Positions 5,673-41,106 of a DNA stretch of 64,000 bases are shown one piece after another. Location: NCBI RefSeq assembly GCF_036174265.1, contig NZ_CP108055.1, forward strand, positions 9,858,001 through 9,922,000, written 5' to 3'. Positions within the stretch are counted from its first letter, which is position 1, and every line of letters starts with the position of its first letter. The notes beneath the pieces were generated by a model. That model searched no databases, had not been told where the DNA came from, and was given only the letters and a program-made list of their open reading frames with translations. A program made the translations under genes and the position numbers. The DNA is from Streptomyces sp. NBC_00285. GTDB taxonomy: Bacteria; Actinomycetota; Actinomycetes; Streptomycetales; Streptomycetaceae.

Positions 5673-6026
5673 CCCTCACGGGGCGCCCGGACTGGATCTT
5701 CCGTCCTCCGCGCACCGCACACCGCACTCCGCACACCGAAGCGACGAAAGCGGCTCCATCCCCGCCCTGGCCCAGCACGTCTACGAACTCCTGGCCTGAG
5801 CGGCGATCTCACTCAGGAAGAGCTGCACCCACCCTCGGCGCGGGTGGGCCAGCTATCACCCCGGGGGCGCCGGACTCTGTGAACGAGGCGCCACCCGAGT
5901 GTCCCTCAAGGGGATCCGCACCCAAGCTTCATTGCGAGGCTTCCTTGCGGCAGACCATCGTCCGCCGATGGTGACTTCTGACGTGGGCGTGCCGTTGCAC
6001 AGGGCGTGGCTCGGGGGCGGTCCGGC
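5673..6026. other. Convergent intergenic region with hairpin (5828-5848)
   Basis: This 354-bp gap lies between convergent genes. No open frame looks like a protein. It contains the hairpin CCCACCC (5828-5834), loop TCGGCGC, GGGTGGG (5842-5848), which probably serves as the shared terminator. Otherwise I see nothing in it. Confidence 0.5.
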
Positions 6027-17886: not shown

Positions 17887-17937
17887 CGTGCTCCTCGTTG
17901 AGCTGACGGCATCGCCTCGGATGTGGGTACGTTAAAA

Positions 17938-17951
17938 GGTACGTTCGTACC
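17938..17951. promoter_or_regulatory. Candidate TetR operator upstream of cocE operon
   Basis: GGTACG-TT-CGTACC is a perfect inverted repeat, flanked by another GGTACG-like half (GGGTACGTTA at 17925-17934). It lies about 50 bp before the cocE start. Its form fits the TetR encoded at 12113-12766 at the other end of the operon. Confidence 0.6.
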
Positions 17952-18084
17952 CTGTCAATTACCGGGACGGGTCGACCTCCTGCGATTCACCTGCGAGAGT
18001 TCCTCCGCCTGAGCTGACGGAAAGACCGCCTGACCACGGGGAACCCGGCGTGGGCCCTCATGCCCGCGAGGCTTGTCGGCGGGC

Positions 18085-19030
18085 TCAGCCGTGACCGCTG
18101 CGGGCGCCCGGCGGTGGGCGCGTCCGGCGATGGGGTGGCAGTCGGCTGTGCAGGGCGTGCACCACCTTGTGGAAGGCGGCCTTGCTCTCGAAGCCGATGC
18201 CGGGGGTGTCGGTCAGGCCGACGCGGCTCTTCTCGACGACGACGGCGACGGCGACGTCGGTGAAGCCGCGGGTGGGCTGGAACTCGGCCGGGCAGCACTC
18301 GTTGTCGCCGAGCTTGAGGGCGGACGCGATGTGCAGGGAGAACTGGTGCCCGCCGTGCGGGATGCAGCGCCTCGATGACCGGCCGTGCTGACGGAGCAAG
18401 TCCTGGATGCGCAGGTACTCCACCAGGCTGTGGGAGAGCGCGGGGTCGACCTTGACGGTGTCGCGGTCGGAGCGCAGGCCGCCGTAGCGGATCAGGTTGC
18501 GGGCGTCCTGGAGGGAGAGGAGGTTCTCGCCCGTGGCGATGGAGCCGGTGCAATGCTCGGCGACGGTGGCGTTGAGGTGGTCGTCGAGCGGGTCGCCGAT
18601 CTCCTCGTACCGGAACAGCCCGTGGGGCTCGATCGCCCGCCGTGCTCCAGGGCCGTGTTGAGGTCGAAGCGGCCGTTGATGTCGACGGCCGGCTGGGAGC
18701 CGTCGCCTTCCAGGACGTCGATGACTGCCTCGATACGGCGCAGGTCATCCGCCAGGTCGGCGCCGCCGATCTGCATCTTGACGACGTCGTAGCCCGGGTC
18801 GAGGAAGCCGCGCTCTTCGTCCTGAAGGTCGGGGAGGGTCCTGCCGGGGGAGTAGTAGCCGCTGCGGTGTGGACGAAGACGGAGTCGTCGGGCTGCCCGT
18901 CGCCGTAGCGCTCGGAAGGTACCGGTACAGCGGCTTGCCCTCGATCTTGGAGGCCAGGTCGAACAGGGCCGTGTCCACCGCCGGCCGGCCTCGTCGGCTC
19001 CGCCGAGTGCGGTGGCGCGCCGATGTCCGG
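18085..19030 (-). pseudogene. Enolase-superfamily dehydratase, D(-)-tartrate dehydratase-like, multiply frameshifted
   Basis: Segments in at least three frames line up in order with tartrate-dehydratase-like enolase-superfamily members. They are AVDTALFDLASKIEGKPLYR (about 18910-18985), DEERGFLDPGYDVVKMQIGG with AVDINGRFDLNTALEHG (about 18650-18830), SARNLIRYGGLRSDRD-like sequence near 18480, and RRCIPHGGHQFSLHIASALKL to DTPGIGFESK (18170-18370). The N-terminal capping domain is missing and several indels separate the pieces. The metal-binding region and the final HGGH are still readable, so decay is fairly recent. Confidence 0.75.
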
Positions 19031-27629: not shown

Positions 27630-28105
27630 CCGGCTACGGGTGCGCGCGGGTGTCCGGCTGTGGCTGGCTCCCTGAGGAAGCCAGCCTGTCGGTGACCTTA
27701 CCTGATCTCCGGGGGCGTGCCGGTTCGATGCCCCGCCGGTCTCTCTGATGAGACGGCTGGTGGTGTTGCCGTGGCAGCCGCCGAGCGCGTCCGCGACGAC
27801 GACAGGCCGGATGGTTCGAGGAGTTGCTGCCGCATGGCGGCGAAACAGGGCAGTGACGGCAGGGTTCTCCACAGCGACGGCCGGGTTCCCCACACTGATC
27901 CGTCACTCTCTGCACGCTGTCGAACCTTGCCTGCAAGGCACAGGGCTTCCAGGGCCGTTCGCCCGGCCGGACGACCTTTGCGCTGTCCGGAGTAGGCCGC
28001 CGAGGCCGCCCGCACTCTTCGCTTCCAAGTGCACGACCCCCGACCACCTGTCCGCGCGCCTGAACGAGGGCCCGGGCTGAGAGCCTTGTCCCGCTGGGAG
28101 CCGAC
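27630..28105. other. Gap, nothing recognised
   Basis: This 476-bp stretch lies between the nucleotidyltransferase and the repeat protein. Minus-strand frames contain protein-like stretches (PAVTALFRRHAAATPRTIRP), but none is identifiable and none has a good start. The repeat-protein promoter should lie at its right end. Confidence 0.35.
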
Positions 28106-30040
28106 GTGGATCATGACCGCGTGCCACACCCAGAGAATCTCCACGAACTACTTGCACACGCCGGACTCACGGTCGTCGAGGACGTGCCCTCGGGCAGCCT
28201 GTTCCCGCCGGAGGCCGGCTGGCGGATCGCGCGGGGGATCGCGGCACCGGACGGTGCGGCCCGCCAAGCGCTCGATGCCGCGTGGTGGCGCCGTCTTTGC
28301 GATGTCGAAGGGGAGTTCCTGGTGGCCGTCCTGAGGCACCGGATCGGCGGCAACGACTCCTTGTGGACCCGGGTTCGGCATGCCGGGAGCGGCGGTCCGC
28401 AGTTGACCGGCACCCCTGGGTTCGTGGCGCTCTCCCTCGACGGGCAGGTACTGCTGGCGGAGGTGCCCGGCGCGGACGGGCCTCGGGTGACGGCCCTCGA
28501 CCGACTGCCGGAGCGTTTGGAGGAGGCTGCCGAGGCCGCCGGGCGCGAGACCGAGGTCGAGCGCGCCGAGGTGTGGGCGGCGGTGCCCGGCCGGGACCCG
28601 TGGCCTCTGCACTGGGCGGCGGGGATCGGGTCCAACCCGGCCGCGACGGACGAACTGCTGATCCGACTGCTGGATGTGGAGGACGGCTTCCTGCACGGAT
28701 GCGACCGGTCCGCCGTCCTCGACGCCGCCTTGGCGCACCCCGATCCGCGGGTGCGGTCAAGGCCCGCCGACACCTTCCGGCCCAAACTCACGTCCGATCA
28801 GTGGGTACGCCTGGTGCGCGCAGAGCCGTCGCCGGATCGACGCGTGCTCTGGGCGGAGCACGCCTGCGGCTGGGGCGCCCAACTCCCCGAGGACCTGTAC
28901 GACGACCTCCTCGCCGGCCCGTCCCGCGCTGGGGCGGCCGAACTCCCGGGGCTCCCCGCACGACACCTGCCTGACCTCGCGGCCGACGCCGATCCCCGGG
29001 TGCGGGCGGCGGCCTGTGCCCGGTGGGAGGACCTCGCCGCACCGTTGCGGGAGCGGCTGCTGGCCGACACCGACGACGCGGTGCGAACGGTTGCGCTGCT
29101 CGCCCATCACACCCGCGTACCCATGCCTCGCGAGGTTTTCGCCGCGCTGCCCGACCCGCTGCGGGCGCTCGAACGGTGCCGCCTCGCGCCCGAGTTGGAG
29201 ACCGAGCTGGTCCGGGACGGCGACGCGAAGGTACGTCGGACGCTGGCCGCCAACCCGGGCCTGGGCGAGCACGGCGTCGCCGTGCTGGCGGAGGACCCGC
29301 AGGACGACATCCGCTCCACGGTGGCGCTGCGCCCCGACCTCACCGAGGAGCAACGTGCCGCGGTGCGCCACGACTTCGACCCGGCATTGATGTCGCACAC
29401 CCTTCCCTGGGTCAAGGACCTGCACGGCGACGCCGACGTGATGCGCCGTCTCGCCGCGTCCTCCCACCCGCTGGTCCGTCGTAGCGTGGCCCGCGCCCGG
29501 CGCCTCCCGCCGGATGTCGTGGCGCTCCTGGCGCGGGACGAGGACCGGGTGGTCCGTCTGTTCCTCGCCGAATCGTGCGAGGACGCGCCGACCGACATGC
29601 TGCTGGAGGTCTGGCGCTGGTGGGACGGCAGTCTCAGCCACCCCGACGGGCCCCGCAGCCACCCCAACTTTCCCCGTACGGGCCTGCTGCGTCATACCGC
29701 CGACCCCAGCGGGCGGATGCGCCGCCTGGCCCTGGACGATCCGGAGTCCACACCGGCCGACGTCGCACGCCTGGCCCGGGATCCCGAGGCAGAGGTGCGC
29801 CGCCGCGCGGCTGAGGACCACCGGCTGTCACCGGCCGACGCGGTGCGGCTGCTGAACGACCCGAAGTCCTACGTCCGCGGCACCGCGGTACGCAATCCGC
29901 GGCTGCCGGCCCGCGTCCTGGCGGGGCTGCTCCACGACCGCGACACGGCATGCGCGGCGGTCACCAACCCGGCGATCCCGGTCCCCGTTCTGTACCGCAT
30001 CCTGGCCGCGGCCGAGATTGCCGTGGCAGCCCTGCGCTGA
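28106..30040 (+). CDS. Large repeat protein, leucine-rich-variant/HEAT-like
   Basis: The 644-residue soluble protein has no signal peptide. From about residue 170 to the end it contains degenerate helical repeats of roughly 22-25 residues with the recurring pattern (H/D)PDxxVRxxxA: HPDPRVRSRPA, DADPRVRAAAC, DTDDAVRTVAL, DGDAKVRRTLAANP, ASSHPLVRRSVA, DEDRVVRLFLA, DPEAEVRRRAAED, DPKSYVRGTAVRNP. This matches LRV-type alpha-solenoids, which bind other proteins. The N-terminal 165 residues are a distinct domain that I do not recognise. The GTG at 28106 has GGGAG 5 nt upstream. Function is unknown; similar Streptomyces paralogues occur as single genes. Confidence 0.8.
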   Translation: MDHDRVPHPENLHELLAHAGLTVVEDVPSGSLFPPEAGWRIARGIAAPDGAARQALDAAWWRRLCDVEGEFLVAVLRHRIGGNDSLWTRVRHAGSGGPQLTGTPGFVALSLDGQVLLAEVPGADGPRVTALDRLPERLEEAAEAAGRETEVERAEVWAAVPGRDPWPLHWAAGIGSNPAATDELLIRLLDVEDGFLHGCDRSAVLDAALAHPDPRVRSRPADTFRPKLTSDQWVRLVRAEPSPDRRVLWAEHACGWGAQLPEDLYDDLLAGPSRAGAAELPGLPARHLPDLAADADPRVRAAACARWEDLAAPLRERLLADTDDAVRTVALLAHHTRVPMPREVFAALPDPLRALERCRLAPELETELVRDGDAKVRRTLAANPGLGEHGVAVLAEDPQDDIRSTVALRPDLTEEQRAAVRHDFDPALMSHTLPWVKDLHGDADVMRRLAASSHPLVRRSVARARRLPPDVVALLARDEDRVVRLFLAESCEDAPTDMLLEVWRWWDGSLSHPDGPRSHPNFPRTGLLRHTADPSGRMRRLALDDPESTPADVARLARDPEAEVRRRAAEDHRLSPADAVRLLNDPKSYVRGTAVRNPRLPARVLAGLLHDRDTACAAVTNPAIPVPVLYRILAAAEIAVAALR

Positions 30041-30140
30041 AGCCGGCCGGTGCGGTGTGACGTCCTCCGCGCGACAAGGGTCACGCCAGGTGGCGCGGTA
30101 TTGGCCATGTTCCCGTCAGGCGGTATCGTCACCTGGATAT

Positions 30141-30243
30141 CGATGACGGCAAAACGGAAGCCGGTGGGAATCCGGAACGGTCGCGCCACTGTGTGCCACC
30201 ACCTCGTATGAGGCGGCGGCGAGTCAGACCCGTAGCCGTCGTC
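30141..30243 (+). ncRNA. Cobalamin riboswitch upstream of cbtBA
   Basis: Conserved cobalamin-riboswitch elements appear in order: AAAACGGAAGCCGGTGGGAA, TCCGG, GCGCCACTGTG and GAGTCAGACCC. The closing P1 stem is formed by GATGACGGC (30142-30150) and GCCGTCGTC (30235-30243). It ends 47 nt before the cbtB start, where it can control translation or termination. B12 binding would be expected to turn off the cobalt uptake genes. Confidence 0.9.
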
Positions 30244-30290
30244 ATGTGCACCACCGAGATGGGACGCGAGCTCCCAGAGGAGGCCCTGCC

Positions 30291-30512
30291 ATGGCGCAGC
30301 ATGTCGCACCGCCGATCGCCACCACCCCCGCTCTCCCCGCCAAACTGCCGATCGGGGCGATCGCCCCGTGGGCGGTCTTCTTCGGCATCCTGATGCTGGT
30401 CCTGCTGTACTTCGTCGGCGCCGAGCAGGGGGCTACGTCCGTGGTCTCCGGCGAGGGCGTCCACGAGTGGGTGCACGACGCCCGTCACCTGCTCGGCTTC
30501 CCCTGCCACTGA
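30291..30512 (+). CDS. cbtB: Cobalt transporter subunit CbtB
   Basis: The 73-residue protein has one membrane helix (about 24-43) and the CbtB signature C-terminus HEWVHDARHLLGFPCH, rich in metal-binding His and ending in Cys-His. CbtB works with CbtA in a putative cobalt uptake system typically found under B12 riboswitches. The ATG at 30291 has AGAGGAGG upstream. It is the first gene after the riboswitch at 30141-30243, 23 bp before cbtA. Its size is normal for the family. Confidence 0.93.
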   Translation: MAQHVAPPIATTPALPAKLPIGAIAPWAVFFGILMLVLLYFVGAEQGATSVVSGEGVHEWVHDARHLLGFPCH

Positions 30513-30535
30513 CCCGAGGGGAAACCAGCACACCC

Positions 30536-31294
30536 ATGAACTCCGCAACGGTGAGAAACCTTCTCGTGCGGGGCATGCTCGCCGGCCTCGGTGCCGGCGT
30601 GCTCGCCCTGATCGTCGCCTATTTTCTCGGTGAACCGAACGTGGACAAGGCGATCGGCTTCGAGGGGGCCCACGCTCCAGCGCACGAGCACGAGGTCGAA
30701 CTCGTCTCCCGCAGCCTGCAGTCCACCGCCGGCCTGGCCACCGGCGTCCTCATCTACGGCGTCGCGTTCGGCGGCATCGCCGCCCTCGCCTACTGCTTCG
30801 CGCTCGGCCGGGTGGGTCGCTTCACCCCGCGAGCAACCGCGCTGTTGCTGTCCGGTTGCGCGCTCCTCGCGGTCTATGTCGTGCCGTTCCTGAAGTACCC
30901 GGCCAACCCGCCGGCGGTCGGCAACGGCGACACCATCGGCAAGCGGACCACGCTGTACCTCCTGATGATGCTGCTCAGTGTGCTTCTCGCGATCGCCGCT
31001 GTCATCCTGGGCAAGCGGCTCGCGCCGCGCCTGGGCACCTGGTGGGCGACCGTCACCGCGTTGGCCGCGTTCACCCTGGTGATCGGGCTTGCCTACGCGT
31101 TCCTGCCGGTCATCAACGAGGTGCCGAGCGACTTCCCGGCCACTGTCCTGTGGCGGTTCCGGCTCTCCGCCCTGGCCATACAGGTCACGCTGTGGGGAGG
31201 CTTCGGCCTCGTCTTCGGGGAACTGGCCGAGCGGCTGCTGAATCCGAAGCCCGCCACCGCGGCCCCGGCCTCGGCGGTCGCCGCCCCCGGCTGA
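30536..31294 (+). CDS. cbtA: Cobalt transporter subunit CbtA
   Basis: The 252-residue membrane protein has about six helices. The first is followed by a His-containing loop HAPAHEHEVE (residues 46-55), a probable metal site. The order cbtB-cbtA and the B12 riboswitch are the standard arrangement for this predicted cobalt permease. Hydrophobic segments include GVLIYGVAFGGIAALAY, LLLSGCALLAVYVVPFLKYP and the conserved KYPxNPPAVG region. The start is the ATG at 30536 with GAGGGGAA upstream. Regulation should be shared with cbtB. Confidence 0.93.
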   Translation: MNSATVRNLLVRGMLAGLGAGVLALIVAYFLGEPNVDKAIGFEGAHAPAHEHEVELVSRSLQSTAGLATGVLIYGVAFGGIAALAYCFALGRVGRFTPRATALLLSGCALLAVYVVPFLKYPANPPAVGNGDTIGKRTTLYLLMMLLSVLLAIAAVILGKRLAPRLGTWWATVTALAAFTLVIGLAYAFLPVINEVPSDFPATVLWRFRLSALAIQVTLWGGFGLVFGELAERLLNPKPATAAPASAVAAPG

Positions 31295-31473
31295 CCGTGA
31301 TCCGACCATGAGTGAGGGCCCGCGGAACCAGGCGAGTTCCGGGGGCCCTCTCGTGTTCTTCGGACACCCGACGGGCCCGGACCACGGGCATGACCTATCC
31401 ACCCCGGCCCGACGCAACAGGCCCGCCCGACCGATTGGCCGAGGCCGGAGAAGGCGAGCAGCGGAGGAGCCGA

Positions 31474-31812
31474 GTGGCCAGACGACCCCAGCCCCGCCAT
31501 ATCACCCTGGGCGGCCGGGAGGCCGTCGCCCTGACCGTCGAGGAGTACGAGCAACTGCTCGCCAGCCGACGGCAGATCGGCGGCCAGAGCGCCCGTGTGC
31601 GGGTACTCGCCCTGGAGGCCAAGCGGACCGAGCAACTCCTGCGGAACCTGGAGACTCTGGTCGGGACTTCGGACGGGGGGTGCGGTGCCTCGGCAGGTGC
31701 GGCGAGGTCGGAGGAGTGCCCGACCGTGTGCGTCGCCGGGGCCCTCGATGCCGACTGCCTGCGGTGCGCCATCGCGGAACTGCTGCGCCGGCACCGGGAT
31801 ACGGCCGCCTGA
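31474..31812 (+). CDS. Small hypothetical protein with C-terminal cysteine cluster
   Basis: The 112-residue protein begins with a basic segment and HITLGGREAVALTVEEYEQL, which resembles the beta-strand and helix of Phd/YefM-like antitoxins but is too short to assign. A helical middle follows. The tail contains CPTVC and DCLRC, a possible four-cysteine metal site. The GTG at 31474 is preferred because AGGAG lies 4 nt before it; an in-frame ATG at 31390 would add 28 low-complexity residues. It follows cbtA by 179 bp on the same strand. A link to cobalt or B12 is conjecture. Confidence 0.6.
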   Translation: MARRPQPRHITLGGREAVALTVEEYEQLLASRRQIGGQSARVRVLALEAKRTEQLLRNLETLVGTSDGGCGASAGAARSEECPTVCVAGALDADCLRCAIAELLRRHRDTAA

Positions 31813-31841
31813 ACCGGATCCGCCGGGAGTGCCGGTGGCGC

Positions 31842-32417
31842 TCATGGGTGCAGGGTGTGCCCCAACCGCAGATTCCAGCGCTCGCCCTGACCGCTGATCT
31901 CGGTGGCGGTCAGCGGCCGAACGTCGGCACGCCAGAAGGCCGTCACGGGCGCTCCCAGTACGTGTACCACCGCGGCTCGCACGACATCGGGTTCCACCAC
32001 GGCCAGGGTGAGGCCGTCGGACTCCGTCACGGTGTCCAGCCAGCGGGCGACTCGCAGGCACAGGTCCTGCACCGACTCGCCGCCGTGGGGTGCGGAGGCG
32101 GGGTCGGCGAGCCACTGTGTCAACGCCTCCGGTTCGTCCCGGCCGACTTCGTCGAGCGTACGGCCCCGCCAGCGGCCCGCGTCAAGACCGGCCGGTCCGG
32201 CATCGGCTGTCTCCACGGCGAGGCCGAGCGCGGCGGCGGTCTCCCGGCAGCGCGTGCTCGGCGAGGTGACGAGACCGGCGCCCGAGGGCAGCGAACCCCT
32301 TGCCGAACGGGCTTGCAGGGCACCGGAGTTGTCCAGGGACGTCGTGCCGTCGTCGAAGCGGGCCTGGCGGAGGGACGGGTTCGTCGCGGGTGAGACGAGG
32401 GTGACGCGGTGGGTCAC
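31842..32417 (-). CDS. Histidine-phosphatase-fold protein lacking catalytic histidines
   Basis: The 191-residue protein follows the branch-1 histidine phosphatase (CobC/phosphoglycerate-mutase-like) pattern. The diagnostic LVRHGxT near the start reads LVSPATN, and the second histidine region (V-S-H-G) reads VVEPDVVRAA. The arginine in TSPSTRCRETAAAL and the LDAGRWRGRTLDEV helix are kept. A missing phosphohistidine implies no phosphatase activity, so a binding or regulatory role is more likely. Its GTG start overlaps the stop of the folP-like remnant (GTGA). It thus sits at the end of the riboswitch-metE transcription unit. Canonical relatives include the B12-pathway alpha-ribazole phosphatase. 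Confidence 0.75.
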   Translation of the reverse strand: MTHRVTLVSPATNPSLRQARFDDGTTSLDNSGALQARSARGSLPSGAGLVTSPSTRCRETAAALGLAVETADAGPAGLDAGRWRGRTLDEVGRDEPEALTQWLADPASAPHGGESVQDLCLRVARWLDTVTESDGLTLAVVEPDVVRAAVVHVLGAPVTAFWRADVRPLTATEISGQGERWNLRLGHTLHP

Positions 32418-32740
32418 GAGTGTGCTCCTACGGGCTGTGTCATGGGTTGCGGTTCTCCACCGGACAGGGCACGGACGTACGCCGGTCGGGGTCGACGGCG
32501 CGTAGTCCTCCGGCTGGGGTGGACGCCCTCGCCGACCAGTTGGTCGATGACACCGTCCAACCGTCTCATCTCCTCGTCGGTGCGCACCCGCTGTGCTCCC
32601 GGATGGCTTGCGGCAGGCCCGAGTTCGATGATGTCAGCCCCCTCCGAGCGCAGCCGTTGGGCGTGCGCCACAGCTGGGGTCAGGAAGCGGTTCCCGTCGG
32701 AGAACGAGTCCGCGGTTCCCGACTCCCCGACGATGCTGAC
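32414..32740 (-). pseudogene. Dihydropteroate-synthase-like (FolP) fragment
   Basis: The frame reads SIVGESGTADSFSDGNRFLT, then AQRLRSEGADIIELGPAASH and PGAQRVRTDEEMRRLDGVID. This corresponds to the first beta-alpha units of the pterin-binding TIM barrel (N-(I/V)T-x-DSFSDG; GADIIxxGxxSxxPG). The sequence then degenerates and stops at 32414 after about 110 residues of the usual 280. It overlaps the next gene start by GTGA, a trace of former translational coupling. Confidence 0.7.
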
Positions 32741-32779
32741 CGGTTCGGCGGCGGCGTACCGGATCCCCTGCGGATGTCC

Positions 32780-32977
32780 GGATGTCCGGATGCCTCGGCC
32801 AGGGGCCGAGCGGATCACCGAGCGGGTCTCCGCGCAGGGCGAGAACGTTGTGCACGCCCTGGGCGGCGTAGTGGTGGAGACGAACGTGGGGATCAGTGCC
32901 TCCAGTCGGCGGATCACGGTCCGGAGACCGGCTTCGGCCGCCGTGGTGCGTGGCGACATGAACTCGAAGAGCCATGG
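32780..32977 (-). pseudogene. Methylenetetrahydrofolate reductase-like (MetF) remnant
   Basis: Reading PWLFEFMSPRTTAAEAGLRT and RRLEALIPTFVSTT matches the N-terminus of MTHFR (FEFxPP/SPRT; PxFVSVT). After an internal deletion and frame change the next recognisable piece is YAAQGVHNVLALRGDPLGDP, the conserved I/V-x-N-(I/V)-LALRGDPP region. The rest of the barrel is absent. It lies directly behind metE, as an intact metF often does. Confidence 0.7.
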
Positions 32978-33057
32978 GCGGGTGCTTTCTCCCGAGCCGG
33001 GGCCGGGGCCGGGAGAGCGCGGCGGGCGCGTCCTCCCCCGGCCGGCCGGGCTTTCGG

Positions 33058-35382
33058 TCAGGACGTGGAGAGTTCCGCGCGGACCGTGCGGGCGGCGGTG
33101 ACAAGGTTCTCCAGGCAGGCGCGGGTCTCGGGCCAGCCGCGGGTCTTCAGGCCGCAGTCGGGGTTGACCCACAGCCGCTCGGCGGGGATGGCCTTCAGGC
33201 CGGTGCGCAGCAGTTCGGCGGCTTCCTGCGCGCTCGGCACGCGAGGGGAGTGAATGTCGTACACACCGGGTCCGGCCTCCCGCGGATAGCCGTGTGCGGC
33301 GAGCTCACGCGCCACCTGCATGCGGGAGCGGGCGGCCTCCAGGCTGATCACGTCGGCGTCGAGGTCATCGATGGCCTGGATGATGTCACCGAACTCGGCG
33401 TAGCACATGTGCGTGTGGATCTGAGTGTCCGGCCGCACTCCGCTGGTGCTGAGCCTGAACGCCTCGGTTGCCCACGCCAGATACCCGGCGTGGTCGGCGG
33501 CCCGCAGCGGCAGTGTCTCGCGCAGGGCCGGCTCGTCGACCTGGATGACCGAAGTGCCTGCCGTTTCAAGGTCGTTGACCTCGTCACGCAGGGCGAGGGC
33601 GACCTGCCGTGCGGTCTTGGCGAGGGGCTGGTCGTCGCGGACGAAGGACCAGGCGAGCATGGTGACCGGGCCGGTGAGCATGCCCTTGACCGGGCGGTCG
33701 GTGAGGGACTGTGCGTACGTCGTCCAGCGCACCGTCATCGGCCCGGGCCGCGAGATGTCGCCGGCCAGGATCGGCGGGCGGACGTAGCGGGTGCCGTAGG
33801 ACTGGACCCAGCCGTGCTGGGTGGCCAGATAGCCGGTGAGCTGTTCGGCGAAGTACTGGACCATGTCGTTGCGTTCAGGCTCGCCGTGTACGAGGACGTC
33901 CAGGCCGGCCTTCTCCTGGAAGGTGACCACATCCTGGATCTCCGCCTTGATGCGCTCCTCGTAACCGGCCGTGTCGATTCGTCCTGCCCGCAAGTCGGCG
34001 CGGGCGACGCGGAGTTCACCGGTCTGGGGGAACGACCCGATGGTGGTCGTCGGCAGCAGCGGCAGCCCCAGATGGGCGCGCTGGGCGGTGGCGCGTGCGG
34101 CGTACGGCTGGGAGCGGCGGGCGTCGGTGTCGGTGACTGCCTCGGCACGGGCGCGGACGGTTGAGTCGTTGGTGATCGGCGAACTGGCGCGGGAGGCCAG
34201 GTCTGCGCGGTTGGCGGCCAATTCGGCGCTGATGGTGTCGGTGCCCTGGGACAGGCCCTTGGCGAGGGTGACGATCTCGGCGGTCTTCTGCCTTGCGAAG
34301 GCCAGCCAGCGCAGGATCTGAGGCTCGGTGTCCCGCTCGGCCTTCGCGTCCAGCGGGACGTGGAGAAGGGAACAGGAGGCGGCCACGTCGACCCGGTCGG
34401 CGAGCCCGAGAAGGGTGCCGAGGGTGGACAGGGACTTCGACAGGTCGTTGATCCAGATGTTGCGTCCGTTGACGACGCCGGCGACCAGGCGCTTGCCGGG
34501 TAGTCCGCCCACGGCCGCCAGGGCGTCCAGGTTGGCTGCCGCCGCCTCGGTGAAGTCCATGGCCAGCCCCTCGACCGGGGCCTTGGCCAGCACCGGCAGG
34601 GCGTCGCCGAGCCGGTCGAAGTAGGAGGCGACCAGCAGCTTGGGGCGGTTGGTGAGGGCGCCGAGATCGCGGTAGGCGCGGGTGGCGGCGTTCAGCTCGG
34701 CCGGTGTGCGGTCCTGCACCAGGGCGGGCTCGTCCAGCTGCACCCACTCGGCACCGGCCGCGCGCAGGTCGGCGAGGACCTCGGCGTACACCGGGAGCAG
34801 TCGGTCCAGGAGGGTGAGCGGCTCGAAGTCCGCGGGCACGCCCGGTGCGGCCTTGGCCAGGAGGAGGTAGGTGACGGGGCCGACCAGGACCGGCCGGGCG
34901 GACAGACCGAGGGCCAGGGCCTCCTTCAGCTCCGCGACCTGCTTGGCGGAGTTCGCGGTGAAAGCCGTGTCAGGGCTCAACTCGGGTACCAGGTAGTGGT
35001 AGTTGGTGTCGAACCACTTGGTCATCTCCAACGGGGCGGTGTCCTGGGTGCCGCGGGCCATGGCGAAGTAGCCGTCGAGGGCGTCGGCGTCCACGGCCAC
35101 CGCCACCCGGTGGCGGGCGGGGATCGCGCCGACCATGACAGTGGTGTCCAGGACGTGGTCGTAGTACGAGAAGTCACCGGTGGGCACCTCGTGGATGCCG
35201 GCCTCGGCGAGCCGGCGCCAGTTGGCGGCGCGCAGGTCGGCCGCGGTCGCGCGGAGGGTGCCGGCGGTGACGCGGCCCTTCCAGTAGCCCTCGACGGCCT
35301 TCTTCAGTTCTCGGTTCGCGCCCTGGCGGGGGTGGCCGTACACGGTGGCGCGTGCTGCCGCGGCTGCGGTCTTGGTGGTCAC
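33058..35382 (-). CDS. metE: Cobalamin-independent methionine synthase
   Basis: The 774-residue enzyme transfers a methyl group from 5-methyltetrahydropteroyl-triglutamate to homocysteine without B12. Two (beta/alpha)8 domains are present. The C-terminal domain begins TTTIGSFPQTGELR and holds the zinc ligands in HTHMCYAEF, E-rich VHGEPERNDMV, and NPDCGLKTRGW near the end. The N-terminal domain shows HYLVPELSPDTAF and VQLDEPALV. Length is normal for the family. The GTG at 35382 follows AAGGAGATCTCC. A cobalamin riboswitch lies upstream, so expression should fall when B12 allows MetH to work. Confidence 0.97.
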   Translation of the reverse strand: MTTKTAAAAARATVYGHPRQGANRELKKAVEGYWKGRVTAGTLRATAADLRAANWRRLAEAGIHEVPTGDFSYYDHVLDTTVMVGAIPARHRVAVAVDADALDGYFAMARGTQDTAPLEMTKWFDTNYHYLVPELSPDTAFTANSAKQVAELKEALALGLSARPVLVGPVTYLLLAKAAPGVPADFEPLTLLDRLLPVYAEVLADLRAAGAEWVQLDEPALVQDRTPAELNAATRAYRDLGALTNRPKLLVASYFDRLGDALPVLAKAPVEGLAMDFTEAAAANLDALAAVGGLPGKRLVAGVVNGRNIWINDLSKSLSTLGTLLGLADRVDVAASCSLLHVPLDAKAERDTEPQILRWLAFARQKTAEIVTLAKGLSQGTDTISAELAANRADLASRASSPITNDSTVRARAEAVTDTDARRSQPYAARATAQRAHLGLPLLPTTTIGSFPQTGELRVARADLRAGRIDTAGYEERIKAEIQDVVTFQEKAGLDVLVHGEPERNDMVQYFAEQLTGYLATQHGWVQSYGTRYVRPPILAGDISRPGPMTVRWTTYAQSLTDRPVKGMLTGPVTMLAWSFVRDDQPLAKTARQVALALRDEVNDLETAGTSVIQVDEPALRETLPLRAADHAGYLAWATEAFRLSTSGVRPDTQIHTHMCYAEFGDIIQAIDDLDADVISLEAARSRMQVARELAAHGYPREAGPGVYDIHSPRVPSAQEAAELLRTGLKAIPAERLWVNPDCGLKTRGWPETRACLENLVTAARTVRAELSTS

Positions 35383-35547
35383 GGAGATCTCCTTCGCGAG
35401 ATGAATCCCTGAGATCCCGGAGACGGGACGAGAGCGCGAAGGTGTGACGAACCGGACGGAAACGGCCCACGGCCGTCCGCTCGATATGCACGTCGACCCG
35501 CCCACGAGGTCACCGGGATGTCCGTGCCCGGAGTTGTCCGCACACGG

Positions 35548-35748
35548 GCAGTTGGCAGGTCTTCGGACTCGTGGGCACGCCCTCCTGTACGGAGGACATC
35601 TACTGGCCGTCGCTTCCCGGACCCGGTACGTCGGGTCCAGTGCGTATGACGGCGGTCGTTCCCACTCACCGCTGCGGGGCAGTCCCGGATTCCCACCGGG
35701 TTCCCTCTTGCGACGCATCCCGCCTGGCGGACGGGGCGAACCAGCTGC
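35548..35748 (-). ncRNA. Cobalamin riboswitch upstream of metE
   Basis: On the minus strand the conserved elements run AAGAGGGAACCCGGTGGGAA, TCCGGGACTGCCCCGC, CAGCGGTGAG, a long variable arm, and GAGTCCGAAGACCTGCC (B12-box end). P1 pairs GCAGCTGG (35748-35741) with CCAACTGC (35555-35548). It ends 165 nt before the metE start. B12 binding is expected to repress metE, the standard use of this RNA in Streptomyces. Confidence 0.96.
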
Positions 35749-35939
35749 ACCAGCCAGCGTAAGGGGACGGTTCTGAGTCCGGAGGGTTGCTTCCATCATT
35801 CGGACGGTGAGCAGGCACACGCGGGTGAGCAGGTGTGAAACGGGCCAAGGGTGGGCAGCGCGGACAAGGCTCCTCAGCGACCCGCGGGATCACCCTGCAC
35901 TGCTGCGGCTGGGGCGAACCCGGCAAGACTTCCGCCACC

Positions 35940-36095
35940 GCCACCGCCGTCGGCTGCCAGATCCGTTACGCCCACCACCTCGTCCGCTCCGACGGCCTCG
36001 ATCTCGCCAGTGCCTCCGCCGCCACCCCCATCGGCATGGGCCGCCGCGTCTGCGAACGCCTCGACTGCCCCCAGCGCGTGCGCTTCCATGCGGTC
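35940..36095 (+). pseudogene. ScfR-type XRE regulator, C-terminal fragment
   Basis: A short frame reads GCQIRYAHHLVRSDGLDLAS and PIGMGRRVCERLDCPQR. This is the end of the DUF2083 domain of XRE-type short-chain fatty acyl regulators (Y-x-DGLDLxxxxAxxPIGxxCRxCxRxxCPQR). The helix-turn-helix and most of the sensor domain are missing, and the flanking frames are broken. It lies between two riboswitches and is unlikely to be functional. Confidence 0.6.
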
Positions 36096-36192
36096 AGCCG
36101 CTGCGGATCGACCAGAACACCAGCACGTTCGTGCCGTATCCCGTGACCGGCCACACGACTTGCCCCGGCGATTACTGCGATAGCCTCATCGG

Positions 36193-36339
36193 GCCAGTCG
36201 AGCCACAACCGAGGCCAGGGAATCCGGTGCGAACCCGGAACTGACGCGCAGCGGTGAGGGGGACGGGCGGGGCACGACGCCACTGGGAGACCGGGAAGGC
36301 GCCCCGGCCGGACGAACCCGAGTCCGAAGACCTGCTGGC
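36193..36339 (+). ncRNA. Cobalamin riboswitch upstream of the btuFCD-like operon
   Basis: Elements appear in order: AGGGAATCCGGTGCGAACCC, GGAACTGACGCGCAGCGGTG, CACTGGGAGACC, and CGAGTCCGAAGACCTGC. P1 pairs GCCAG (36193-36197) with CTGGC (36335-36339). It ends about 70 nt before the substrate-binding protein start. This is the third such RNA within 6.2 kb and supports a B12 or corrinoid substrate for the transporter. Confidence 0.95.
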
Positions 36340-36408
36340 ACCGCCGCGCCCCGGCGCGGAGGAACGTCCGTAGGCCAGGCTCCGCGTACGAGCCCCGACC
36401 CCAAAGGC

Positions 36409-37455
36409 ATGCCCGTGCTCCGCACCGTTCACCGTATTCCGGCGCTTCTGATGGCGTCGGCCCTGCTGCTCACCGCCTGTGGCTCCTCCGGCGGCGGAGA
36501 CGTGAAGTCACAGAAGACCTCAGCCGTCGGCTACCCGGTCACCATCGACGACTGTGGCCGGAAGGTCACCCTCAAGTCGGCCCCGAAGCGGGCCGTCTCC
36601 CTCAACCAGGGCACCACCGAGATCCTGCTCTCCCTGGGCCTGGCCGGCCGTATGGCGGGTACGGCGACATGGACCGATCCGGTGATGAAGGGCCTTGGGA
36701 AGGCCAACGCGTCCGTGCCGAGGCTCGCGGACAACGCGCCTTCGTTCGAGAAGGTCCTGGATGCCGAACCCGACTTCGTGACCGCCTCGTTCGTCTCCAC
36801 TCTGGGCAAGGGCGGGGTCGCCACCCGCGAGCAGTTCGAGAAGCTCGGCGTGCCCACGTACGTCTCGCCGTCCGACTGCTCCGCGGGCAAGGACAACGAC
36901 AGCGGCGGCGACGGATCGCGCAGCGAGCCGCTCACCCTCGACGCCGTTTACGGCGAGATACGGGACCTGGCCCGGGCGTTCGGAGTAGGAGAGCGCGGTG
37001 AGAAGCTCGTCGCCTCGCTGAAGCAGCGGGTGGGGACGGCCACCGCCGGACTGCGCGCTTCGGACGTCTCCCTGATGTACTGGTTCGCCAACTCCCAGTC
37101 CCCGTACCTGGCCGGCTGCTGCGGCGCGCCGGGCGCCATCACCCGTGCCGTCGGTGCGAGGAACGCCTTCGCCGACACCCACGACGAATGGCCGCAGATC
37201 GGCTGGGAGACCGTCGCCGACCGTGACCCCGACGTCATCGTGATCGGTGACCTGACCCGCAAGCAGCAGACCGCGGAGACCGCAGCGGCCAAGATCCGCT
37301 TCCTGGAGACCAACCCCGCCACCCGCAACCTGACCGCTGTGAAGAAGAAGCGATACGTCCTGCTGTCCGGCCAGGCGATGAACCCGTCCATCCGAACGAT
37401 CGAGGGGATCGAGGAGGTCGCGGCCGGTCTGCGGGACTTCGGACTGGACAAGTGA
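36409..37455 (+). CDS. btuF: Cobalamin-type ABC transporter substrate-binding lipoprotein
   Basis: The 348-residue lipoprotein has a signal peptide ending LLTACGSS, Cys24 being the lipidation site. A class III periplasmic-binding fold follows (VTIDDCGRKVTLKSAPKRAV, NQGTTEILLSLGLAGRMAGT, DVIVIGDLT). The family carries siderophores, haem or B12; the upstream riboswitch and neighbouring cobalt genes favour B12 or a precursor such as cobinamide. A negatively charged insertion (CSAGKDNDSGGDGSRSEP) lies mid-protein. The start ATG lacks an obvious strong ribosome binding site. The stop overlaps the permease GTG by 4 bp. Confidence 0.88.
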   Translation: MPVLRTVHRIPALLMASALLLTACGSSGGGDVKSQKTSAVGYPVTIDDCGRKVTLKSAPKRAVSLNQGTTEILLSLGLAGRMAGTATWTDPVMKGLGKANASVPRLADNAPSFEKVLDAEPDFVTASFVSTLGKGGVATREQFEKLGVPTYVSPSDCSAGKDNDSGGDGSRSEPLTLDAVYGEIRDLARAFGVGERGEKLVASLKQRVGTATAGLRASDVSLMYWFANSQSPYLAGCCGAPGAITRAVGARNAFADTHDEWPQIGWETVADRDPDVIVIGDLTRKQQTAETAAAKIRFLETNPATRNLTAVKKKRYVLLSGQAMNPSIRTIEGIEEVAAGLRDFGLDK

Positions 37456-38474
37456 GCCAAGTGAGCGTCCGTACACCGCTGTTGACGGGCGCCGGGCTGG
37501 CCGCACTGCTCGCGTCGATCGCCGTTGCCGTGACCATCGGCCCGGCGGACATCTCCACGGGAGACGTCTGGGCGTCGGTCGCGGCCCATCTCGGCCTCGG
37601 CGAGGGCAGGTTGGCGCCGCTGCGGGACGGCATCGTGTGGAACCTGCGCATGCCACGCACGCTCCTCGCCGCCGTCTGCGGAGCCGGGCTGGCCGTGTGC
37701 GGGGCGGTGATGCAGTCGCTGCTGCGCAACCCCCTGGCTGATCCCTTCGTACTCGGAGTCTCCTCCGGCGCCTCCACGGGAGCGGTCGCCGTGGTCGTGC
37801 TGGGGGTGGGCGGGGGAGTGGTGTCCCTGTCGGCGGGCGCCTTCCTCGGTGCGTTGCTCTCCTTTGCCCTGGTGCTGCTGCTCAGCCACACCCTGGGCGC
37901 CGGCACCGACCGGGTGGTGCTGTCCGGGGTGGCTGCCATGCAGCTGTTCTCCGCGTTGACCTCGTTCATCGTCCTGACCTCGGCCGACGCGGAGACCACC
38001 CGGGGCGTGCTGTTCTGGCTGCTGGGCTCGCTCACCGGTGCCGACTGGGGACAGGTGCTGCTGTGCACGGCGGTCCTCGCCGTCGTCCTGACCGTCTGCC
38101 TCGGGCACGCCCGCACACTCGACGCGTTCGCCTTCGGCGACGAGGCCGCAGCAGGACTCGGCGTCCGGGTCACCCGCACCCGCCTGGTCCTGCTCTGCGC
38201 AACCGCGCTGCTCACCGCCGCCCTGGTGAGCTGCGCCGGCGCGATCGGCTTTGTCGGCCTGGTCCTGCCGCACGCCACCCGCGTGTTGACCGGTGCCGGC
38301 CACGCTCGCCTGCTGCCGGTGACTGCGCTGACCGGCGCCGTCTTTCTGGTGTGGGTCGACACCCTCGCCCGTACCGCCCTCGACCCCCAGGAGGTCCCGG
38401 TGGGCGTGGTGACGTCCCTCATCGGCGTCCCCGCGTTCGTCGTCGTGCTCTACCGCGGACGGAGAACGGCATGA
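37452..38474 (+). CDS. btuC: FecCD/BtuC-type ABC permease
   Basis: The 340-residue permease has about ten membrane helices and the FecCD family landmarks: RMPRTLLAAVCGAGLAVCGA, QSLLRNPLADPFVLGVSSGAS, and the coupling helix region near FGDEAAAGLGV. GAIGFVGLVLPHATRVLTG is the conserved segment before the last helices. It starts at GTG inside the upstream stop and its stop overlaps the ATPase ATG, so the three genes are translationally coupled. It forms the channel for the B12-type importer at the membrane. Confidence 0.93.
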   Translation: MSQVSVRTPLLTGAGLAALLASIAVAVTIGPADISTGDVWASVAAHLGLGEGRLAPLRDGIVWNLRMPRTLLAAVCGAGLAVCGAVMQSLLRNPLADPFVLGVSSGASTGAVAVVVLGVGGGVVSLSAGAFLGALLSFALVLLLSHTLGAGTDRVVLSGVAAMQLFSALTSFIVLTSADAETTRGVLFWLLGSLTGADWGQVLLCTAVLAVVLTVCLGHARTLDAFAFGDEAAAGLGVRVTRTRLVLLCATALLTAALVSCAGAIGFVGLVLPHATRVLTGAGHARLLPVTALTGAVFLVWVDTLARTALDPQEVPVGVVTSLIGVPAFVVVLYRGRRTA

Positions 38475-39292
38475 TCAGCCTGCACACCGACCGCGTCGTA
38501 CGGCACCTCGCGGACAAGGTCGTCGTCGACGACGTCACCCTCACCCTGCGCCCCGGCGAGACCGTCGGGTTGCTCGGCCCCAACGGCTCCGGAAAATCAA
38601 CTCTGTTGAGACTGCTGGCCGGGGTCCTCGCGCCCACGGCCGGAGTGGTGACCCTGGACGGGCGCCCGCTGGCCGAGGTCGGCCGCCGGGCCACCGCCCG
38701 CCGTATCGCCACCGTTGAACAGCACGCCCACACCCAGACCGAGCTGACCGTGCAGGACGTCGTCGCCCTGGGCCGCATCCCGCACCGCCGCGCCTGGACC
38801 CCGCCGACGGCGGCCGACGCCGCGGCCGTCACTGAAGCACTGGCCCGCACCGGACTGACCGACCGGGCCGCCCAGTCCTGGCACACCCTCTCCGGCGGTG
38901 AACGCCAACGCACCCAGATCGCCCGCGCGCTCGCCCAGGAACCCCGCGAACTCCTCCTCGACGAACCCACCAATCACCTGGACATCCAGCACCAGTTGGA
39001 CCTGCTGGCGCTCGTCGTGAGCCTGCCGGTCACCACGGTGATCGCCCTGCACGACCTCAACCTCGCCGCGATGTACTGCGACCGCCTGCTCGTCCTGCGC
39101 GAGGGCCGCGCCATCGCGGAGGGCACCCCGGCCGAGGTCCTGACACCCGCCCTCATCGAGCGGGTCTACGGCGTCCGCGCCGAGGTCACCCACGAACCCG
39201 GCCACCCCGCGATCCGCTTCCTGCGCCCCGCCGCCCCGGCTCCGCCGAACCCGAAGAGGGGCGTGACGGGTGAGGTCCCGACAGCGAACTGA
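38471..39292 (+). CDS. btuD: ABC transporter ATP-binding protein (BtuD/FepC type)
   Basis: The 273-residue ATPase has Walker A GPNGSGKST (36-44), Q-loop VEQHAHTQ near 82, signature LSGGERQR (140-147), Walker B ELLLDEPTNHLD (160-171) and the H-switch histidine in IALHDLNLAA. This is the compact form typical of siderophore/B12 importers. It powers the BtuC-like permease encoded just upstream. Start ATG overlaps the permease stop. The operon ends here; no clear hairpin follows. Confidence 0.95.
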   Translation: MISLHTDRVVRHLADKVVVDDVTLTLRPGETVGLLGPNGSGKSTLLRLLAGVLAPTAGVVTLDGRPLAEVGRRATARRIATVEQHAHTQTELTVQDVVALGRIPHRRAWTPPTAADAAAVTEALARTGLTDRAAQSWHTLSGGERQRTQIARALAQEPRELLLDEPTNHLDIQHQLDLLALVVSLPVTTVIALHDLNLAAMYCDRLLVLREGRAIAEGTPAEVLTPALIERVYGVRAEVTHEPGHPAIRFLRPAAPAPPNPKRGVTGEVPTAN

Positions 39293-39665
39293 ATCAGTGG
39301 CCACGGAGCAAACCTCCACCGCAACGGCACCGTGCCGCGTTGCCGTCTGCCGGGACTGCCGCTGTGGAACCCGAGGATCATCAGCGTGGATGCCGCACCC
39401 CTCCTGGATCCGCCAAGTAGCGGGTCACACGAGGTGTGGCGGTCACCTCGTGTCAAGTCCCGGTCCCGATGCGACTCATCAACGGCAGCCGGTCCCAACT
39501 TGAACGCGACAGGGCTCCGGTGTCGTCGCACGATCACGGACCGGACGTCCTGCGACTACGCCGAAGCTCCTTGACCGGGGATCCGGTTGATCCCTCAGCG
39601 TGATGGACGAAAGTGCAGGGCAGCGAATGGGGTGTGGGTGCCGTAGTCACTTCGGGGCGCAGGGC
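39293..39665. other. Convergent gap, nothing recognised
   Basis: This 373-bp region lies between the end of the B12 importer operon and the end of the convergent TetR gene. Short open frames have no family resemblance. A terminator is expected here but I find no convincing long stem. Confidence 0.4.
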
Positions 39666-40331
39666 TCAGCCCTCGGAGGCGTTCCACAGGTCGCTGAGTT
39701 CCGCCCAGTCCGGAGCCGGGCTCTGCAACGCGGTGTGCCCGTCAGTGGTCGACGTGCGCAGTCCGGCGAGGACCAGGTCCAGGTACCGCAGGTGGAGCGT
39801 GGTGGCGCGTTCGTCGGTGACGGGGATCCGCGCGGTGAGGTGTTCGAGCAGCAAGGGGACGTCGGCGGAGGTGAAGTCGGCACGCAGTACGCCTGCGCGG
39901 TGGGCGCCGTCCACCAGGTCGTCGAGGGCGGCCCGGAGCAGGCGTGAGGCGGCCGCGATCTCGTCGGTGGCCGGCAGCCGGCCGCCGAGCAGCGGGAGCA
40001 GCGGGCCGACTGCACCCTGGGCCGAAAGCGCGTTCCGCAGGAAGCGGGTGAAGGCCGCCCAGGGGTCCGACTCCTCGGCGAGGGCTGTGCGGGCCTGGGC
40101 GACGAGCTGCTCCATCCCCATGACGCGCATCCGCTGGGCCAGCAGTTCCTTGCTGGGATAGCGGCGGTAGAGGCTGCCCATGCCGATGCCGGCCCGGCGG
40201 GCGATCTCCGAGACGGGGGCGTCCCAGCCGAGCTCGGCGAAGACTTCGCGCGCAGCCTGCATGAGGCGGGCGTCGTTGCGGTCTGCCTCCCGCCGACGGC
40301 CGCGGGGTCTGCCGGTCTGCGTGTCACCCAT
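39666..40331 (-). CDS. TetR/AcrR family regulator
   Basis: The 221-residue protein has a basic N-terminus (GRPRGRRREADRND), then the helix-turn-helix (LMQAAREVFAELGWDAPVSE, GIGMGSLYRRYPSKELL). The C-terminal domain is a TetR ligand-binding domain of the SetR/KijR-like type (ALDDLVDGAHRAGVLRADFT, LLLEHLTARIPV). It lies 16 bp behind the SDR gene on the same strand, so the two form one unit. The 18-bp palindrome at 41152-41169 in the divergent promoter region is the obvious operator candidate. Confidence 0.88.
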   Translation of the reverse strand: MGDTQTGRPRGRRREADRNDARLMQAAREVFAELGWDAPVSEIARRAGIGMGSLYRRYPSKELLAQRMRVMGMEQLVAQARTALAEESDPWAAFTRFLRNALSAQGAVGPLLPLLGGRLPATDEIAAASRLLRAALDDLVDGAHRAGVLRADFTSADVPLLLEHLTARIPVTDERATTLHLRYLDLVLAGLRTSTTDGHTALQSPAPDWAELSDLWNASEG

Positions 40332-40347
40332 GGACAGGCATTCTCCT

Positions 40348-41106
40348 CTACCGGCGTGCCACGCCGTACCCACCGTCGACGGTGAGCACCTCGCCGGTGA
40401 CGAAGCCGGCCTCCTCGCCGACGAGCATCGCGATGAGCCCAGCCACGTCCTGCGGCTCCGCGACACGGCCCAGGGGGGTGTTCTCCGCCAGCCGCCGCTG
40501 GAACTCCTGCGGCATGCACGCGCTGCTATCGGTGCGGACAAAACCCGGCGCCACGACGTTGACGTTGATGCCGAGCGGACCGGCCTCGTAGGCAACGAAG
40601 CGCGCGAAGGTGTTGAGGGCGGCCTTGGCGGTGCCATGGGCGGCCATGCCGGGGGCGGGCGGGCCGTCGGCCACGGCGCTGGAGACATACACGATGCGGC
40701 CCTGGCCCTGGGTGCCCATCAGCCCCAGTGCCCCCTGGGTGAGCGTGTAGACGGATGCCAGCTCGTCCGTCACCTTCGTCCTGAAGTCGTCCCAGGCGAG
40801 GGCGCGAACCGGGGTGGGAATGAAGCGGGCGCCGGCGTTGCAGACAAGAACGTCCAAGCGCCCGTCGACCGCGGAGCGCTCCAGCAGTTCGGCAGCCTGG
40901 GTGGGGTCGTACACGTCGGCCTGTACGGCGAAGGCTTCCCCGCCGTCGGCCTTGATGCCCTTGACCACCTGGTCGGCTGCCTCACGGTTCGAGAAGTAGT
41001 TGACAGCCACGCGGTAGCCGCGAGCCGCCAGTTCCCGCGACGTGGCAGCGCCGATTCCCCGACTGCCGCCGGTCACCAGGGCCGTCGGCTGGGTCGTGGT
41101 GTTCAT
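40348..41106 (-). CDS. SDR family protein with histidine replacing the catalytic tyrosine
   Basis: The 252-residue SDR has TGGSRGIG (14-21), LVCNAGAR, a serine in VSSAVADG and the C-terminal TVDGGYG. The catalytic YxxxK position reads HGTAK, with His instead of Tyr and the Lys kept. This variant is seen in some actinobacterial SDRs; it may lower or alter activity. AGGAGG precedes the ATG. It is co-transcribed with the TetR gene downstream and divergent from a quinone-oxidoreductase gene. Confidence 0.85.
   Translation of the reverse strand: MNTTTQPTALVTGGSRGIGAATSRELAARGYRVAVNYFSNREAADQVVKGIKADGGEAFAVQADVYDPTQAAELLERSAVDGRLDVLVCNAGARFIPTPVRALAWDDFRTKVTDELASVYTLTQGALGLMGTQGQGRIVYVSSAVADGPPAPGMAAHGTAKAALNTFARFVAYEAGPLGINVNVVAPGFVRTDSSACMPQEFQRRLAENTPLGRVAEPQDVAGLIAMLVGEEAGFVTGEVLTVDGGYGVARR

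Follow-up and report, generated by a model that had tools for sequence, protein, structure and literature searches.

A rare conjunction of three cobalamin riboswitches ahead of cbtBA, metE and an importer operon in Streptomyces sp. NBC_00285

Introduction

Nine B12 riboswitches have been counted in Streptomyces coelicolor (Borovok 2006, via PMC4991794), and the available text of PMC4991794 describes a B12-riboswitch-controlled importer gene, SCO7217, in the FecCD-type ATP-binding cassette (ABC) operon SCO7216–7218. The same species has a riboswitch in its metE leader, spanning −382 to −155; termination at −155 is reported to depend on B12, and translation of metE is repressed by the small RNA scr5239 (both from the available part of PMC4365011, in which the figure legend gives the termination as data not shown and names an RNA-seq supplementary figure). 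Here, we describe a 64-kb stretch of Streptomyces sp. NBC_00285 (the window; 9.86–9.92 Mb of the 10.26-Mb contig) in which three cobalamin riboswitches precede the proposed cobalt transporter genes cbtBA, the B12-independent methionine synthase gene metE, and a three-gene ABC importer. This cluster is very probably part of the known Streptomyces B12 regulon, in which three separate OFF-riboswitches happen to adjoin.

Other work supplies the terms for comparing these leaders. Rules for assigning cobalamin aptamers to classes I and II, including GGAA at J3/4 for class IIb and UCU at J6/3, are set out in the accessible portion of PMC11260477. The available text of PMC9600662 describes the L5–L13 kissing loop and reports that lower-ligand selectivity tracks taxonomy and not strongly the function of the target gene, so that different behavior is not to be assumed from target genes alone. 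CbtAB is presented as a predicted cobalt transporter in the part of PMC2667541 that bears on it.

Three cobalamin riboswitches of two structural types

A scan of the whole window with Rfam 15 at gathering thresholds gave exactly three matches, all to RF00174 (Cobalamin; cut-off 31.5 bits), and a search with laxer filters over positions 28000–41000 (13 kb) returned the identical three together with only sub-threshold matches to unrelated families. The metE leader aptamer (35537–35760, minus strand) scores 92.1 bits (E 1.5e-21), the importer leader aptamer (36217–36333, plus strand; model positions 45–169) scores 74.6 bits (E 1.5e-16), and the cbtBA leader aptamer (30104–30254, plus strand) scores 32.8 bits (E 0.00014, or 2.8e-5 in the 13-kb search). 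An earlier note, made from the DNA alone, had placed a cobalamin riboswitch before each of three different B12- or cobalt-linked units and named a covariance-model search as the check; all three sites lie above the gathering score, the units are borne out by Pfam identification of the genes, and the coordinates prove right to about 40 nt. The importer aptamer extends to 36193–36339, where GCCAG (36193–36197) pairs by inspection with CTGGC (36335–36339) as P1; the RF00174 model leaves P1 and P2 of this aptamer unaligned. Judged by sequence, these are genuine cobalamin riboswitches of a known kind, belonging to a family present in 295 of 295 genus genomes.

The three aptamers share the core and L5 of the RF00174 family. 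The stretch of the model beyond position 89 and up to about 151, which we read as the P8–P12 extension, is aligned in the metE and importer aptamers, and both are assigned to class I-type on that account. In the cbtBA aptamer, 19 nt stand in place of 62 model positions in this region. This short aptamer shares with class IIb the absent extension and GGAA at J3/4 (CGGAAGCC) but has no UCU at J6/3, where GAGUCAGACCCG is found; because this departs from the class IIb rule, it is filed as class II-like only. The Mycobacterium tuberculosis ppe2 switch, a variant according to the available text of PMC11260477, likewise has no UCU. Placement of the junctions and of P8–P12 on these sequences is our own reading. 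The two structural types, and the recurrence of each leader with its own gene in other species, exclude a recent riboswitch duplication, as the earlier note had argued from sequence and arm length.

Leader conservation and expression platforms

The metE gene (33058–35382, minus strand, GTG start at 35382) encodes a protein with PF08267 and PF01717 domains that passes the NCBIfam equivalog cut-off of TIGR01371 (1040.6 versus 929.95). The riboswitch was sought with Rfam at 14 loci and with a strict pattern in 20 further leaders chosen from 77 genomes; it was matched in all 14 of the former, at which MetE is 80–89% identical (13 Streptomyces and one Actinobacteria bacterium OV320), and in 19 of the latter. 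The aptamer spans −378 to −155 from the start codon, nearly the position of the S. coelicolor metE riboswitch relative to its GTG start; unlike the S. coelicolor leader as described, the window metE sits in a three-riboswitch cluster. A candidate P13 hairpin (TGACCT-CGTGGGC-GGGTCG; 35494–35512, minus strand) is located some 100 nt before the Shine-Dalgarno sequence, and GGG in its loop can pair with CCCCG in L5 (35675–35679), a kissing pair of only 3–4 bp by eye. The P13-like pattern is present in 32 of 32 metE leaders, all preselected for having the riboswitch.

The importer leader was found in all 30 orthologous loci examined (10 close loci, window included, and 20 further, chosen from 43 genomes). 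Its P13 hairpin (GGCTC-CGCGTAC-GAGCC; 36378–36394, plus strand) presents a CGCGU loop that could pair with ACGCG of L5, and a hairpin with a CGCG-starting loop complementary to L5 occurs in 30 of 30 leaders, the search having required a paired stem. This stem covaries, with C-G replaced by T-A in L144 and T-A by C-G in L140, L142 and L149 (comparison loci are numbered L, genomes G), and T-G intermediates are also seen. A Shine-Dalgarno-like AAAGG (36403–36407, plus strand) follows P13 by 8 nt. In the 10 closest leaders, window included, an ATG at 36409 is kept in seven and a GTG at 36415 in all 10, which makes the GTG the likelier start.

For cbtBA, 11 close loci (window included) and 20 further ones, chosen from 75 genomes, were compared, and the core CGGTCGCGCCACTGT is present in all 31; a first, too strict version of the pattern had matched eight of the 20 further leaders and the looser core matched 20. 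The putative P13 hairpin (TGGGA-CGCGAGC-TCCCA; 30260–30276, plus strand), whose CGCGA loop is complementary to TCGCG of L5 (30181–30185), directly abuts the Shine-Dalgarno sequence GAGGAGG (30277–30283, plus strand), and a P13 with this loop was found in 16 of the 31 leaders. The P13 counts for the importer and metE come from dedicated searches that replaced a generic longest-hairpin pick, which had deviated in five of 30 importer leaders (L106, L133, L136, L139, L140) and four of 32 metE leaders (the window, L156, L166, L169). The sequence differences among the three leaders concern both aptamer type and the place of P13 relative to the ribosome-binding site; the different B12 thresholds suggested in the earlier note are conjectural.

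An inverted repeat also lies near the metE start (CCTTCGCG at 35435–35442 and CGCGAAGG at 35391–35398; 35391–35442 overall, minus strand), whose 8-bp pairing can cover the Shine-Dalgarno sequence. Both arms occur in 26 of 32 metE leaders, far from the aptamer, and the repeat may add another layer of control or belong to the switch itself; it was not in the minimum-energy fold of a 71-nt piece that cut into the outer arm. A short upstream open reading frame (ORF) running from GTG 35513 to the metE start was set aside, as by eye it appeared to lie in another frame in L092.

The B12 regulon and a proposed mechanism

The window genome holds seven RF00174 matches, three of them within 6.2 kb of its 10.3 Mb, compared with the nine riboswitches reported for S. 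coelicolor. The remaining four lie ahead of a gene for a NicO-family nickel/cobalt transporter, cobD (followed at some distance by cobN), the gene for a ribonucleotide reductase large subunit, which comparison with S. coelicolor (PMC4991794) makes class Ia nrdA, and a gene for a toroid-fold protein. Thus, six of the seven precede genes with a known or riboswitch-based link to B12, cobalt or ribonucleotide reduction, and the same paper describes a similar set in the S. coelicolor B12 regulon, where B12 riboswitches stand before nrdAB, cob genes and genes for an ABC importer and for cobalt transport. The proposal in the earlier note that the three units could respond as one regulon is well founded in knowledge of the riboswitch family, with the amendment that the island forms only part of that regulon.

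Under this reading, plentiful adenosyl- or other cobalamin would be bound by each aptamer, and the L5–L13 kissing loop would form. At cbtBA and the importer, where P13 is placed at the ribosome-binding site or immediately ahead of it, this would lower translation of the cobalt uptake and corrinoid import proteins. At metE, where some 100 nt separate P13 from the start downstream, B12 would cause transcription termination as reported for S. coelicolor, and lowered metE expression would leave methionine synthesis to the B12-dependent enzyme MetH, for which a domain match over cut-off is found in the window genome. Termination at metE and translational control at cbtBA and the importer are the likely levels of regulation, the former because it has been published for S. 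coelicolor metE; the latter we infer from the leaders.

Several results pull against this account. Four leader pieces fold no better than shuffles (z −0.86 to 1.12), and intrinsic terminators were rejected as candidates, no U-tract terminator being found in the three leaders and the scan giving no excess over shuffles (2 found, 2.1 expected). The cbtBA aptamer stands only 1.3 bits above the Rfam cut-off; the cbt leaders of G004, G013, G015 and G016 score 28.6 to 29.9 bits, slightly under it, and those of L094, L096, L101 and L102 have no RF00174 match over it. In 15 of the 31 cbt leaders the search did not find the CGCGA-loop P13, a detail that may therefore not be general, and the strict metE riboswitch pattern is missing in one of the 20 further leaders (L171). 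For the importer proteins, the best NCBIfam models are EitA (siderophore) and those of a putative F420-0 importer (TIGR03868, TIGR03869, TIGR03873), all below cut-off. Finally, leader and gene prove separable in L174 and L177, where another, small gene follows a riboswitch of the importer type.

The toroid-fold gene belongs to a locus elsewhere in the window genome (L011; C1:3244000–3256000). There, a weak riboswitch match at 3919–4022 (32.1 bits) precedes ORFs at 4168–5343 and 5701–7104. The first encodes a toroid-fold protein that looks secreted and is squalene-hopene-cyclase-like in Pfam, the second a transport protein of CbiQ type. Because the toroid fold resembles that of animal intrinsic factor and transcobalamin, the first protein may be a bacterial corrinoid capture protein. 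A protein that looks similar by eye lies behind a riboswitch core in L175.

Riboswitch clustering and gene neighborhoods

Clustering was assessed in 21 genus genomes using 150 of 152 RF00174 matches (19 of the 150 below cut-off), with expectations calculated for matches scattered uniformly over a single 9-Mb molecule in each genome. Pairs no more than 10 kb apart number 22 versus 1.2 expected, and 19 versus 1.1 when the window genome is left out; for over-cut-off matches only, the corresponding values are 13 versus 0.9 and 10 versus 0.85. Riboswitch clustering in the genus is therefore beyond chance, and a pair within 10 kb occurs in nine of the 20 other genomes (eight with over-cut-off matches only). 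Three matches within 10 kb are found in four of the 21 genomes, namely the window's, G012, G015 and G016; as one of the three is below cut-off in each of the latter (30.1, 31.2 and 29.4 bits, respectively), the window holds the sole over-cut-off triple among the 21. S. alboflavus locus L014 has three over-cut-off RF00174 matches and one to RF01482 in 8.8 kb. The gene content of these clusters differs from that of the window: L014 carries metE, an uncharacterized small gene, and genes that by eye resemble nrdI/nrdE/nrdF, and G016 carries metE, cbtBA and a gene for a CRDCCCG-motif protein.

Among 121 genus genomes, CbtA is present in 75, the importer binding protein in 43 and MetE in 77 (thresholds 1e-40, 1e-80 and 1e-200, respectively). 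The exact triple within about 12 kb, with coordinates compared by eye, was seen in one of the 121, the window genome itself; in G096 cbtA, the importer and metE are spread over about 80 kb. Parts of the arrangement recur. The order cbtBA, small gene, phosphatase, metE is found in L092–L094, L096 and L097; L095 has cbtBA, phosphatase, a tetrapyrrole methylase gene, an nrdR-like gene (by eye) and metE; L100–L103 have cbtBA, phosphatase, importer; and metE faces the importer divergently in L012, L099 and L172. Both riboswitches are over cut-off for metE and cbt in L092, L093, L095 and L097, for cbt and the importer in L100, L103 and L104, and for metE and the importer in L099 and L012. From these gene orders, the island is a rare combination of common parts: to regard the cluster as special is half right, since none of the 120 further genomes showed the exact triple, yet pairs of riboswitches, and some triples, recur. 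A search of open-licence literature found no publication on the three-unit cluster, which is weak evidence.

An alternative is that selection keeps these units together because their switches have differing ligands or thresholds, so that the response comes in stages (cobalt uptake first, for instance, followed by import and lastly metE). The adjoining of two aptamer types, class I-type at metE and the importer and class II-like at cbtBA, would suit such tuning, as would the two platform layouts, with P13 beside the ribosome-binding site at cbtBA and the importer and far from it at metE. M. tuberculosis offers a parallel, since its two B12 riboswitches, proposed to be of different classes, differ in isoform preference according to the available text of PMC11260477, and the excess of riboswitch pairs persists without the window genome. 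However, the switches retain their form when the genes lie elsewhere in a genome, which indicates that form follows the gene and not the island; the exact triple occurs in a single genome, and functionally linked genes cluster without any need for tuning. We consider a tuned island quite unlikely. A bolder proposal, that the island is a two-class B12 circuit in which class II-like cobalt uptake and class I import and metE differ in isoform preference and control level (translation versus transcription), and in which a small protein encoded at 31474–31812 is an unrecognized component of cobalt/B12 handling, is tentative and on balance doubtful.

Two further features of the compared loci deserve record. 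In L014 (17114–22223), a riboswitch at 18143–18368 precedes nrdI, nrdE and nrdF-like genes (class Ib ribonucleotide reductase, by eye); two more cobalamin-type aptamers adjoin, one of which, of the RF01482 adenosylcobalamin (AdoCbl) family, lies on the opposite strand (50.3 bits versus a cut-off of 50). Tetrapyrrole methylase genes, cobF-like by eye, lie near metE in L095 (6389–7234; PF00590) and L013 (8146–8970), two other Streptomyces loci, and add to the B12 genes around metE.

Origin of the metE–importer junction

Between metE and the importer lies a 3′ remnant of an ScfR-type (PF09856) regulator gene (35883–36154, plus strand), detected by tblastn: one piece matches the C-terminus of the L014 regulator, which is intact, at 55% identity (E 1e-18), and a different frame holds a further piece matching it at 59% (E 0.001). 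The order in L178 is metE, isocitrate lyase, intact regulator, riboswitch, cbtBA; in L173 it is regulator, riboswitch, importer; and in L174 and L177 it is isocitrate lyase, regulator, importer-type riboswitch, CRDCCCG-motif gene, with metE beyond isocitrate lyase in L177. As these four loci differ behind the regulator, several riboswitch-controlled units use that place. A DNA search with the junction hit 95 of 392 genomes, chiefly in the regulator-remnant part. Apart from the window genome, both ends of the query are matched in G367 alone, where the 20 kb retrieved contain metE and the importer, with no cbtBA.

Judging from these arrangements, the older order was likely metE, isocitrate lyase, regulator, riboswitch, as in L177 and L178, and deletion of the isocitrate lyase gene together with the bulk of the regulator gene probably brought metE and the importer face to face. 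The orders cbtBA–phosphatase–metE and regulator–riboswitch–importer are separate recurrent modules; in this scheme they would have been joined by a change of neighborhood, and the loss between metE and the importer would have made a second riboswitch pair adjacent.

The CRDCCCG-motif gene encodes a small protein with the signature CRDCCCG(S/T)PKVTGVDHA and stands behind cobalamin-type riboswitches in L174 (7037–7606), L177 (minus strand, below 7810) and L096 (minus strand, below 13440). Its leader in L174 and L177 is near-identical to the importer leader, and that in L096 is a different aptamer. The protein has no Pfam match and is probably 2Fe-2S ferredoxin-like, by eye.

The importer and its substrate

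The importer ORFs (36409–39292, plus strand) encode a BtuF-like substrate-binding lipoprotein (36415–37455; PF01497, 107.9 bits versus 27.5), a BtuC-like FecCD-family permease (37452–38474; PF01032, 295.1 versus 26.5) and a BtuD-like ABC ATPase (38471–39292; PF00005, 128.9 versus 25). The label BtuFCD-like given in the earlier note is apt in the broad sense of these families, but the proteins fall far below the NCBIfam cut-offs for BtuF (30.5 versus 234), BtuC (226.7 versus 334 and 240.2 versus 461) and BtuD (127.3 versus 281). The PDB matches are mostly generic or to iron/heme binding, the weakest of eight being a vitamin B12-binding protein. S. coelicolor SCO7216–7218, as described in the available text of PMC4991794, is likewise a FecCD-type operon with a B12-riboswitch-controlled importer gene, and may be orthologous.

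The assignment to corrinoids therefore follows mainly from the cobalamin riboswitch, and the importer might instead carry a non-corrinoid substrate, such as a siderophore or a coenzyme F420 precursor, in which case the third unit would be no B12 gene. The EitA and F420-0 models noted above point in this direction, albeit below their cut-offs. Against it, a cobalamin riboswitch stands ahead of the genes in 30 of 30 loci examined, and the neighborhood is shared with cbtBA or metE in several genomes; a non-corrinoid substrate thus appears improbable. The constant riboswitch is a better lead to the importer substrate than the protein family names.

The cbtBA unit and neighboring genes

The first unit comprises cbtB (30291–30512, plus strand; PF09489, 38.6 bits versus 27) and cbtA (30536–31294, plus strand; PF09490, 243.5 versus 30.7), the proposed subunits of a cobalt transporter. 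CbtB is below the NCBIfam TIGR02459 cut-off (20.2 versus 64.4), and CbtA has no NCBIfam match. That the site ahead of them is a chance Rfam match, leaving two real riboswitches, could be argued from its score near the cut-off and from the orthologous leaders that fall below it, yet is scarcely credible and was rejected through its homologues, given the E value in the 13-kb search, the core kept in every cbt leader examined, and the scores of 31.6 to 38.1 bits in six others (L092, L093, L095, L097, L100, L103).

Downstream of cbtA lies a gene for a small conserved protein of 112 amino acids with a DCLRCAI motif near its C-terminus (31474–31812, plus strand). Homologues occupy the same position in L092–L094, L096, L097 and L178; none was found in L095 or L100–L103. 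A search gave 179 relatives; among the 120 listed, any organism stated is Streptomyces or Streptomycetaceae, and precomputed Pfam domains are lacking throughout. The protein has no NCBIfam match, and its best Pfam match is to the Phd/YefM antitoxin family (E 0.09, 13 bits versus 29.8). In S. alboflavus L014, a distant homologue (17737–18081) stands behind its own cobalamin riboswitch (17350–17547); on this basis, the small protein may be an unrecognized B12-regulon gene.

Next follows a CobC-like histidine phosphatase gene (31842–32417, minus strand; PF00300, 78.4 bits versus 21.7), which is below the cut-off for CobC alpha-ribazole phosphatase (TIGR03162, 70.8 versus 162.9) and adjoins cbtBA in many relatives. 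A metF/folP-like remnant considered at about 32440–33050 was discarded for want of support, since the tblastn queries gave matches solely over the end of metE and the bases immediately following.

Conclusions

The switches and genes of this island are of known kinds, and only their combination is rare. Riboswitch and gene mostly travel together, and B12-controlled units cluster in Streptomyces far beyond chance; at one such cluster, a scar indicates how two riboswitch units probably came to face each other. The three adjoining leaders form a natural set for comparing class I and class II B12 responses in one cell.

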